A stretch of 64,000 bases of DNA from Streptomyces mobaraensis (lineage in GTDB: Bacteria > Actinomycetota > Actinomycetes > Streptomycetales > Streptomycetaceae). The notes under the pieces are model-generated. The model did not search any database, was not told where the DNA came from, and saw only the letters and a program-made list of their open reading frames with translations. The translations under genes and the position numbers were made by a program. Every line of letters starts with the position of its first letter. The first letter of the stretch is position 1. The DNA lies in the NCBI RefSeq assembly GCF_020099395.1, contig NZ_CP083590.1:310001-374000 (forward strand), written 5' to 3'. Below are positions 25,005 through 28,848 of this stretch, piece after piece.

Positions 25005-26492
25005 TTACGCCTTCGGCGTCGCCGCCTCGCGCAGCTCCGCCTCGCGCTGGGTGCGGGCGACCCGGCCGCGGACCAGGAACCAGCCGCCGACCAGGGCCGC
25101 CGCGATCAGCGGCAGGCAGAGGATGGTGTCACGGCTGGCGCCCTTGTCGGCCGCCATCAGGCCCAGGACACCGGCGAGGAAGACCAGCGTGACGATCTGC
25201 GTGTAGGGCGCCCAGGGCAGCCGGTAGGCGGGACGGGAGACCAGGCCCGCCTTGGCGCGCCGCCAGAAGAGCAGCGAGCAGAGCATGATCATGCCCCAGG
25301 TGCCGATGATGCCGATCGCGGCGAAGTTCAGCACGATCTCGAAGGCGTTGTCCGGGACGACGAAGTTGAGGCCGACGCCCAGGACACAGAAGAACGCGGT
25401 GAGCAGGATGCCGCCGTAGGGGACCTGGCCCTTGTTCATGCGGCCGGTGAACTTCGGGGCGGAGCCGGACATGGCCATCGAGCGCAGGATGCGGCCGGTG
25501 GAGTAGAGGCCGGAGTTCAGGCTGGAGAGCGCGGCGGTGAGGACCACCAGGTTCATCACGCCGGCCGCGTACGGCACACCGATCTTGGACAGCACGGTGA
25601 CGAACGGGCTCTCGCCGCCGGTGAAGGCGTTGTACGGCAGCAGGAGCGTGAGGAGCACGACCGAGCCGACGTAGAACAGGCCGACACGCCACATGATCGA
25701 GTTGATCGCCTTGGGCATGATCTTCTCGGGGTTCTTGGTCTCGCCCGCGGCGACGCCGCACAGCTCGACCGAGGCGTAGGCGAAGACGACGCCCTGGATG
25801 ATCAGCAGCATCGGCATCAGGCCGGACGGGAAGAGGCCGCCGTGGTCGAGCATGTTGGACAGGCCCGGGGCGTGCCCGCCGACATCGTGCTGGCTGGCCA
25901 GCAGGAAGATGCCGATCGCCATGAAGGTGATGAGGGCGCCGACCTTGATGATCGCGAACCAGAACTCCATCTCGCCGAAGTACTTCACGGAGATGAGGTT
26001 CACGGTGAGGACGACCGCGAGGGCGATCAGCGCGAGGACCCACTGCGGGATGTCGCTGAACAGGTGCCAGTAGTGGGTGTACGTGGCGACGGCCGTGATG
26101 TCGGCGATGCCGGTGGTGGCCCAGTTGAGGAAGTACAGCCAGCCGGCGGCGAAGGCGCCCTTCTCCCCCATGAACTCACGGGCGTACGAGACGAACGCGC
26201 CGGAGGACGGGCGGTAGAGGACGAGCTCGCCGAGGGCCCGGACGACGAAGAAGGCGAAGACGCCGCAGATCGCGTATGCGATGAAGAGGGAGGGTCCCGC
26301 GCTCGCGAGCCGGCCGCCGGCGCCCAGGAAGAGGCCGGTGCCGATGGCTCCGCCGATCGCGATCATGTTGACGTGGCGGGACTTGAGGTCCTTGCTGTAG
26401 CCCGCGTCACCGGCGTCCACGTGCGTGGACGTCGTGACCGGGGCGGACACACCGGTGGGCGTGTCGGCCGCAGTGAGAGTGCGGTCGCTCAT
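25005..26492 (-). CDS. ansP: Amino acid permease, L-asparagine permease-like (APC superfamily)
   Basis: 495 residues with twelve membrane helices. [25 protein letters not shown] at 37-61 is the consensus amphipathic region of the AAT family, with [27 protein letters not shown] close behind. The sequence pattern ([34 protein letters not shown]) is closest, from memory, to AnsP/asparagine permeases, with CycA-type D-serine/glycine carriers as the alternative. It is a proton symporter in the plasma membrane. It has an untranslated leader of nearly 300 bases if the promoter suggested at 26785-26814 is right. No asparaginase gene is adjacent. Confidence 0.8.
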
Positions 26493-26828: not shown

Positions 26829-26857
26829 TTGACATTTTTGAAAACTCACGCTAAGTA
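26829..26857 (+). promoter_or_regulatory. Strong consensus promoter reading towards the deiminase gene
   Basis: TTGACA (26829-26834), an exact -35 consensus, 17 bases and TAAGTA (26852-26857). The stretch is unusually AT-rich for this genome. The predicted start near 26864 leaves a leader of about 209 bases before the ATG at 27073. Confidence 0.65.
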
Positions 26858-26914: not shown

Positions 26915-27076
26915 ATGCGCAACGTTTCCGGCGGTAAGGCGCATCCGCCGCCGTTTTCCCGGCCTCCCCCGGGAAGAGGACGGATTCCTGCCGGGACCGG
27001 TCCGAAGGATGCAGCGGCCGATCGCCCCGCCGGACGACGCCGGGCCGGTCCCCCGCCGGAAGAGTGTCGTCCATGA
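26915..27076 (+). CDS. Possible upstream ORF overlapping the deiminase start
   Basis: ATG at 26915, with GGAGGG twelve bases before it, opens 53 codons whose TGA overlaps the ATG of the deiminase gene (ATGA). The overlap is the usual coupling arrangement here, but the Pro/Arg/Gly-rich composition is what non-coding GC-rich DNA also gives. The leader also holds a TTCCCGG/CCGGGAA hairpin near 26959-26980. Confidence 0.25.
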   Translation: MRNVSGGKAHPPPFSRPPPGRGRIPAGTGPKDAAADRPAGRRRAGPPPEECRP

Positions 27077-28848
27077 CACACCGACCCGTCACGAGGGTGT
27101 CCCTCGTCTCCCCGCTGGCCTGCGCGGCGGTGCTCGCCGCTCTCGTCCCCGCCGCCGGCGCGCAGGCCGCGCCCGTCCCCGCCGCGCCCCGGCTGCTGGC
27201 ACCCCAGGGCACCGGGCTGCTGCCGAACCTCGACGACGACGCCCGCCGCTGCACCCTGCGCCCCGGCGACCTGGACCGGCTGGACGTGGCCGTGGACGAG
27301 CGCCTCGCCGCCTGCAACGACGCCGCCGACGAGGTCGTGAACGGCGCGGCCGACCTGGACGACCTCACCCCGCTGCGGGTGCCGCCGGCCGCCGCCGGCC
27401 CGCGGGCGACCGCCCGGGTGTCCGTCCCGGCCGCGCAGGCCCGCTACGCCCGGATCTTCGTCGAGCGCGGCGGACGGTACGTCTCGCTGGGCGCCGGCGG
27501 CCCGCTCCGGGCCGACGAGCTGCGGCACGGCGTCCGGCTGGCCGTCGAGGGCCGCGACGTCGTCCGGGACCGGGCCCGCTGGGACGGCCGCGTCGACGTC
27601 ACCCTGACCGTCACCGACCGGGGCGCCACCCGCGCCGCGTCCGTACGGCTGCGCGTGGCACCCGTCCTCCTCCAGCACGACCTCCAGCCGGCCCGGCACG
27701 TCTTCGCCGCCGCCCCCGGGCCCGGCACCGGGCAGCCCGCCGAGGTGCCGGTCTCCGGCCGGCGCCCGGGCGGCTGGGACGCCTTCGCCGGCTCGCTGCG
27801 CGAGGCGGCCCGGGACTCCGGCCTGCCCGCCCGCGCCCTGCGCTTCCAGCCGGGGACGGCCGAGTGGTGGCGGGACGTGTGGCGGCAGGACATCGCCGAG
27901 CCCGGCTACGTCACCAAACGGACCCCCGAGGGCCGCCGCACCATGCGAATCCTGCTGCGCTCCCCCAACCACTGGACGTCCGCCGACGGCCGCGCCGACA
28001 GCCTGCGCCGGGCCGGCCGGCTGCTCTTCCGCGATCTGCGCGGGCCCGGTGTGGGGATCGTCCAGCAGTACACGACCCGGCGCGACGCGGGCGTGGACGA
28101 GCTGCTGAACTTCACCGGCAACCTGGAGTCCCTGCCGCCGTACCCCGGCCATCCGCAGGGCCGGATCCTCTACGGCAGCACCCCCGAGCGCCACCCCGAC
28201 CCGTCGTTCGTGACCATGCTGCGGTCCCAGGGGAAGCAGGAACCGCTGACCCTCGACACGTCCTGGCTGCTGGTCGGCCACGTCGACGAGACCGTCCACG
28301 TCGTCCGGGCCGACAACGCGCGCGGCTGGACGCTCGCCTACTCCGACCCCCGGCTGGCACTGGACCTGCTGCGCCGCGCGCACCGCGCCGGGGAGGGCGG
28401 GCAGCGGCTGTTCGCGGACACGGACGCCCGGGACAAGCCGACCGTCGACCAGATGCTCGACTACGAGCGGCGGACCGGCGACAACGCGGACGCCGCGCGG
28501 CACATCGACGGGCAGCTGGCGGTGCTGACGCGCGCCACCGGGCTGCGGAAGGACGAACTCGTGCCGCTGCCCGTGCTGTACGCCAAGGAGGACGCGGGCG
28601 GCGGGGTACGCCGCCACCTCGCCCTCTCCCCCGCGCTCGCCAACGGACTCTCCCTCACCGCACGGGACTTCGCCCCGCCGGCGCCGCACGGTCCCCGGGT
28701 CGGCGGCCGGGACCTGTTCCGGGACGAGGCCGAACGGCGGCTCCGCGCCCAGGGGGTACGGGTGCACTGGGTGGAGGACTTCTCCTGGGCCCACCTCGGC
28801 GGCGGCGAGATCCACTGCGCCACCAACGCGCTGCGGCAGGTTCTCTGA
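27073..28848 (+). CDS. Secreted protein-arginine deiminase (PAD family)
   Basis: 591 residues. GGAAGA lies ten bases before the ATG. Residues 1-33 are a signal peptide (SPLACAAVLAALVPAAGAQA), so the enzyme is exported. The C-terminal two thirds is the PAD fold: PVLLQHDLQPARHVFAA, then WRQDIAEPGYV with Asp273, ESLPPYP...GRILYGS, LLVGHVDETVHVV with His403 and Asp405, and GGEIHCATNALR with nucleophile Cys582. These correspond to the Asp, His, Asp and Cys of vertebrate PADs that convert peptidyl-arginine to citrulline and ammonia. The N-terminal third is a beta-rich region as in other PADs. No protease or substrate gene is adjacent. Calcium dependence cannot be judged. Confidence 0.87.
   Translation: MTHRPVTRVSLVSPLACAAVLAALVPAAGAQAAPVPAAPRLLAPQGTGLLPNLDDDARRCTLRPGDLDRLDVAVDERLAACNDAADEVVNGAADLDDLTPLRVPPAAAGPRATARVSVPAAQARYARIFVERGGRYVSLGAGGPLRADELRHGVRLAVEGRDVVRDRARWDGRVDVTLTVTDRGATRAASVRLRVAPVLLQHDLQPARHVFAAAPGPGTGQPAEVPVSGRRPGGWDAFAGSLREAARDSGLPARALRFQPGTAEWWRDVWRQDIAEPGYVTKRTPEGRRTMRILLRSPNHWTSADGRADSLRRAGRLLFRDLRGPGVGIVQQYTTRRDAGVDELLNFTGNLESLPPYPGHPQGRILYGSTPERHPDPSFVTMLRSQGKQEPLTLDTSWLLVGHVDETVHVVRADNARGWTLAYSDPRLALDLLRRAHRAGEGGQRLFADTDARDKPTVDQMLDYERRTGDNADAARHIDGQLAVLTRATGLRKDELVPLPVLYAKEDAGGGVRRHLALSPALANGLSLTARDFAPPAPHGPRVGGRDLFRDEAERRLRAQGVRVHWVEDFSWAHLGGGEIHCATNALRQVL

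Follow-up and report, generated by a model that had tools for sequence, protein, structure and literature searches.

Citrulassins are lasso peptides in which Arg9, which immediately follows the lasso ring (PMC12971885), is deiminated by a peptidyl-arginine deiminase (PAD) encoded outside the lasso cluster. As described in the citrulassin passages of three papers (PMC12971885, PMC9266682, PMC8498205), genome comparison led to the responsible pad gene, and complementation confirmed it; des-citrulassins, which bear Arg, go with strains that have no pad, and supplying pad to Streptomyces katrae NRRL B-16271, which natively makes des-citrulassin D, yields citrulassin D. The citrulassin PAD of S. 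noursei (albulus) NRRL B-3066 is cited as WP_064069847.1 (Harris et al. 2020, via the same three papers), and two lasso-peptide reviews state, in the passages concerned, that the timing of the deimination is unknown (PMC8498205, PMC9266682). Here we analyze a gene for a secreted PAD, pad, located in a 64,000-nucleotide stretch of the Streptomyces mobaraensis genome (NZ_CP083590.1, positions 310,001 to 374,000; hereafter, the window). A preliminary description of this DNA saw in pad an undescribed biology. That claim has to be given up, because the action of Streptomyces PADs on citrulassin, with pad away from the lasso cluster, has already been published (PMC12971885, PMC9266682, PMC8498205, citrulassin passages); the window gene extends a known bacterial pathway, and its product groups separately from the known citrulassin PAD. 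With moderate confidence, we propose that its product is a two-domain peptidyl-arginine deiminase that acts on Arg9 of the citrulassin-family peptide LLRTNGNDRLILSKN outside the cell.

The window gene encodes a PAD that carries a signal sequence and whose catalytic residues are intact. It matches the PF03068 profile with 218.9 bits (curated cut-off 25), and D273, H403, D405 and C582 are invariant in an alignment of the window PAD, 239 listed relatives and the S. noursei PAD; a search of NCBIfam with the window PAD returned no family at E<=1. The structure model shows the PAD fold. The preliminary description had assigned the protein to this family with a complete catalytic set and had proposed to check the catalytic positions in PAD alignments and a structure model; the profile match, the alignment to PAD4 and the model bear out both assignments. 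One PAD was found in the genome. The features of the gene are as follows.

27073..28848, + strand: pad, secreted protein-arginine deiminase, 591 aa, type A subfamily (see below)
27073..27168, + strand: Sec-type signal sequence, residues 1 to ~32 (cleavage AQA/AP by eye; heuristic site at 27)
27172..27702, + strand: PAD_M-like middle domain, ~residues 34-210, borders approximate (profile alignment to PAD4, conservation, model), containing the calcium-ligand cluster N52, D54, D56, D83, D86, D94, D97
27640..28842, + strand: PAD catalytic domain, residues 190-590 (PF03068 stretch)
27889..27891, + strand: Asp273 codon (PAD4 Asp350), invariant
28279..28287, + strand: His403 and Asp405 codons (PAD4 His471 and Asp473), invariant
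28816..28818, + strand: Cys582 codon (PAD4 Cys645), nucleophile, invariant

The preliminary description had found no substrate for this enzyme. The same genome encodes a complete citrulassin cluster with an exportable Arg9 lasso peptide at ~5.57 Mb (G000:C1, minus strand; L003/L070), ~5.2 Mb away from pad (C1:0.337 Mb), and the product of this cluster is the likely substrate of the window PAD. The cluster, reached through a search of the genome with the lasso-cyclase family in which all matches were below the cut-off, encodes the precursor MKKTYEAPTLVKRGTFRAKTG-LLRTNGNDRLILSKN, a cyclase of 626 aa, a PqqD-type RRE (NF033530, 116.3 bits against a cut-off of 70), a B2 protease (NF033537, 122.6 bits against 33) and an ABC exporter (PF00664, PF00005). 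Arg9 directly follows Asp8 in all 32 citrulassin precursors among the matches listed and in 80/80 named loci. The nearest sister genome, G051, carries the citrulassin sequence LLRTSGNDRLILSKN, and Streptomyces sp. I05A-00742, with a PAD 86% identical to the window PAD, carries FLRTSGNDRLILSKN; a passage of the genome note for the latter strain names a citrulassin-like cluster (PMC7317104).

Among 392 genomes of the genus, a PAD match is present in 65 and a citrulassin precursor, called with a single 36-aa query, in 46. The PADs were split by match pattern and identity into type A (at least 70% identical), type B and a leftover group C. Citrulassin precursors were found in 5/8 type A genomes compared with 41/384 others (p 0.0008; one-sided Fisher test, which ignores relatedness), and the excess persists when the window genome is omitted (4/7, p 0.0045, same test). 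The corresponding counts are 13/52 for type B (p 0.003), 0/5 for group C and 17/65 for any PAD (p 0.0003), with three genomes counted in both A and B, and with short or broken PADs (G128, G290, G319) entered under any PAD alone; three candidates were scored per genome, and further PAD copies may be missed. Type A genomes lacking type B carry citrulassin in four of five cases. Thus, the window PAD is a divergent relative of the citrulassin PAD that co-occurs with citrulassins, often without the type B enzyme. A class-level set of 296 genomes, partly shared with the genus set, contains a PAD in 8 and a citrulassin precursor in 3, both together in the window genome and G366; a search for further relatives in 150 genomes yielded 17 matches, all already in the genus set. 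From the side of the peptide, 78 named citrulassin-cyclase loci were taken of the best 80 of 105, and a PAD match was found in 25 of the 76 genomes searched, as short or broken pieces only in G727, G730 and G736; type A is represented among the 25 by G667, G672 (the same as G366), G701 and G707 (the same as G213). Two controls from the literature came out as published: a PAD was found in S. noursei B-3066, which makes citrulassin A (the PAD used here is the search match in that strain, the accession not being matched), and genome search found none in S. katrae NRRL B-16271, which makes des-citrulassin D. A PAD is also present in S. torulosus NRRL B-3889, which forms with S. avermitilis a pair with and without citrulline, the passage concerned not being explicit on which is which (PMC8498205).

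Several genomes contain more than one PAD. Types A and B occur together in G058, G213 and G351, of which only G213 has a citrulassin precursor. The citrulassin genome of Streptomyces sp. AC550_RSS872 (G705; L193, L198) encodes three full-length PADs, one of type B and two of another clade, along with pieces of another. At G009:C1:83401-85036 lies a PAD copy that contains in-frame TGA codons and appears decayed, and an uninterrupted type B-like copy is found elsewhere in that genome.

In a tree of 53 rows, type A forms its own clade (support 100/100), across a 100/100 branch from type B (100/95). The two types also differ in alignment columns 505-520, where type A PADs have 16-18 residues (16 in the window PAD) and the S. 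noursei PAD has 57, the commonest type B lengths being 56, 57, 61 and 62 (82/120). Four branches of the tree hold the type A PADs of citrulassin-positive genomes; those of negative genomes are G060, G351, which is sister to the positive G213, and G058, which branches deepest. The motif filter HC[AGS]TN removed L018-L020 (type C), L089 and L090 from the tree. These sequences are not short and retain GHIDE or GHVDE, with HCVTN or HCVSN in place of HCATN/HCGTN as the nucleophile motif; L018-L020 come from genomes without citrulassin, and L089 and L090 from outside the genus.

Residues 1-32 of the window PAD (MTHRPVTRVSLVSPLACAAVLAALVPAAGAQA) are positive under a home-made signal-sequence rule (not SignalP), and so are 206/239 relatives, compared with 60/1195 internal control segments; by group, the rule is positive in 28/31 type A, 15/16 A2, 66/72 other actinobacterial (K) and 97/120 type B PADs. 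The secretion proposed in the preliminary description is thereby strengthened. Because a twin-arginine-like motif occurs within the first 35 residues in 34/239 PADs, most of them more probably use Sec. Given signal sequences on both PAD clades, the exported, threaded peptide is indicated as the substrate.

Profile alignment to PAD4 identifies, besides the middle-domain ligand equivalents listed above, Q272, E276 and E352 at a site near the active center, and each of these ten residues is kept in at least 28/31 type A, 15/16 A2, 67/72 K and 120/120 type B sequences. The site-2 ligands are replaced (PAD4 E351 by I274, D369 by R296). A DxNxDG loop resembling calcium site 6 is found in 119/120 type B, 16/16 A2 and 55/72 K PADs and in 1/31 type A relatives; it is absent from the window protein in the alignment. 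These conserved ligands suggest that the window PAD would be activated by calcium, and the lack of a calcium protein gene nearby, pointed out in the preliminary description, is moot, since the enzyme itself keeps most PAD calcium ligands. At the calcium-switch position Asp388 of PAD4, the passages of PMC8826395 on this site report Gly in actinobacterial and fungal sequences, six each. In our alignment, this column (window residue 326) contains Asp in 14/31 type A, 14/16 A2, 61/72 K and 54/120 type B PADs, so the calcium switch may persist across actinobacteria.

On these grounds, the lasso peptide would be made in the cytosol by the cyclase, RRE and B2 protease and carried out by the ABC exporter, and the PAD would exit by the Sec route and deiminate Arg9 of the exported LLRTNGNDRLILSKN, which should be accessible there. 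Because a Sec-exported PAD would fold and bind calcium outside, where calcium is plentiful, it would meet only the mature exported peptide, and deimination would probably be extracellular. The type A subfamily probably acts on citrulassin. More tentatively, and with confidence falling short of even, we combine these points in a scheme in which deimination follows export, type A is a second, separately descended PAD subfamily recruited in several Streptomyces lineages, and the calcium step between the cytosol and the outside silences the enzyme until it encounters the folded lasso.

A number of observations weigh against this proposal. The S. noursei PAD is a type B enzyme and lies outside the clade of the window PAD. 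PADs of genera such as Kribbella and Amycolatopsis are nested with type A, and no such genus appears in the best 80 of 105 citrulassin-cyclase loci, their genomes not having been searched directly. Citrulassin occurs without PAD in 29/46 genomes, and type A occurs without a citrulassin precursor in 3/8 (G058, G060, G351); the sister relationship of the negative G351 to the positive G213 bears on the co-occurrence tests. The two PAD-containing class-level genomes outside the genus, G452 and G466 (41-42% identical; PADs not placed on the tree), lack a citrulassin precursor. The cyclase scores 260 bits against the NF033561 cut-off of 300, and the lasso-cyclase family also matches below the cut-off in 11/14 control genomes, so the name of the enzyme rests on the precursor and on its 70-72% identity to three cyclases beside other citrulassin precursors. 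Finally, G351 (L229) and G058 (L231) encode further lasso-like precursors whose candidate core includes Arg, and which are possible alternative PAD substrates; among the candidate lasso precursors of the three citrulassin-negative type A genomes, a pattern-based, incomplete search found no common core.

The surroundings of pad offer no further candidate. Its neighbors encode an amino acid permease, an SLT-domain protein, a 3-demethylubiquinone-9 methyltransferase-like protein, a GDSL lipase and others, and the adjoining genes are common only to the nearest sister, G051. Around the type A PAD, G213 and G351 share surroundings of their own, and the type A PADs of G388, G366, G060 and G058 lie elsewhere. 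Across 15 stretches (7 type A, 7 type B and the window) of 15-16 kb each (16 kb for the window; 8.6 kb for one type A stretch at a contig end), no gene family besides pad occurs in more than 3, and an adjoining inhibitor or partner gene was accordingly rejected, in agreement with the preliminary description, which had noted no partner gene nearby. The strong promoter that it assigned to pad was not confirmed: a consensus scan at pad called no sigma-70 promoter and no terminator, and did not call the first of the following two elements.

26829..26856, + strand: promoter candidate TTGAC(A)-N17/18-TAAGT, kept in two relatives (3 upstream regions aligned)
27058..27064, + strand: GGAAGAG, resembling a ribosome-binding site, 8 nt 5' of the ATG (sequence)

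The enzyme could instead be a secreted PAD of broad specificity that modifies extracellular proteins or peptides of the producer, competitors or hosts, with citrulassin at most one of many substrates. Its secretion, the lack of a conserved neighbor, the type A genomes devoid of citrulassin and the 48/65 PAD genomes without detected citrulassin speak for such an enzyme, which we nevertheless consider rather unlikely given the significant co-occurrence with citrulassin precursors and the fact that the cited passages name no in vivo substrate of Streptomyces PADs other than citrulassin (PMC12971885, PMC9266682, PMC8498205). We found no literature linking two-domain Streptomyces PADs to citrullinated proteins; no search was aimed at the novelty of type A. 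A different lasso peptide from this genome, which has three lasso B2 genes, is improbable as the substrate. The two other systems are the following.

G000:C1:2200862-2205562: L004 lasso system, precursor ending ...GWFMSKKSETLTWRIGGS
G000:C1:1690511-1695229: L002 lasso system, precursor ending ...GYLGLKGVEPITHSFSKFW

The L004 core (ending ...ETLTWRIGGS) contains Arg, but among 10 type A genomes searched, its precursor is present only in the window genome and the sister G051; it therefore cannot explain the family and, being absent from 8/10, was rejected as a general PAD substrate. The third lasso core, L002 (ending ...GVEPITHSFSKFW), has no Arg. An enzyme handling free arginine or agmatine, as the divergent amino acid permease gene upstream of pad (25005-26492) might suggest, is highly improbable.

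A second clade co-occurring with citrulassins would give a wider choice of enzymes with which stable peptides could be citrullinated. The secretion signals of PADs bear on the question of timing posed by the lasso-peptide reviews.

Among described enzymes, the window PAD resembles that of S. noursei: both are PF03068-type proteins with the same catalytic set and a signal sequence (by eye in S. noursei), and both genomes contain a citrulassin precursor (core LLGLAGNDRLVLSKN in S. noursei) and a pad gene outside the lasso cluster. The window PAD is not simply the known citrulassin PAD, because it belongs to a separate clade, is 42% identical to the S. noursei enzyme and lacks the type B insertion; the N-terminal DVNRDG loop of the S. 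noursei PAD is missing as well. With the actinobacterial two-domain PADI (Cummings et al. 2021, PMC8826395, passages on domains and calcium sites), it shares the two-domain layout without PAD_N. PAD4-type sites 1, 3 and 5 are largely kept and site 2 is lost, and the site-6-like DxNxDG loop is missing in type A, although these passages expect site 6 to be kept in actinobacteria. PAD_N distinguishes the three-domain animal and cyanobacterial PADI from the window PAD, the model of which aligns from PAD4 residue 110, preceded by ~33 residues that constitute the signal sequence. Human PAD4 shares with it the middle and catalytic domains and the catalytic residues, at 26% identity over the structural alignment; the window protein differs in being secreted, in lacking the N-terminal domain and in having Gly at the D388 column.
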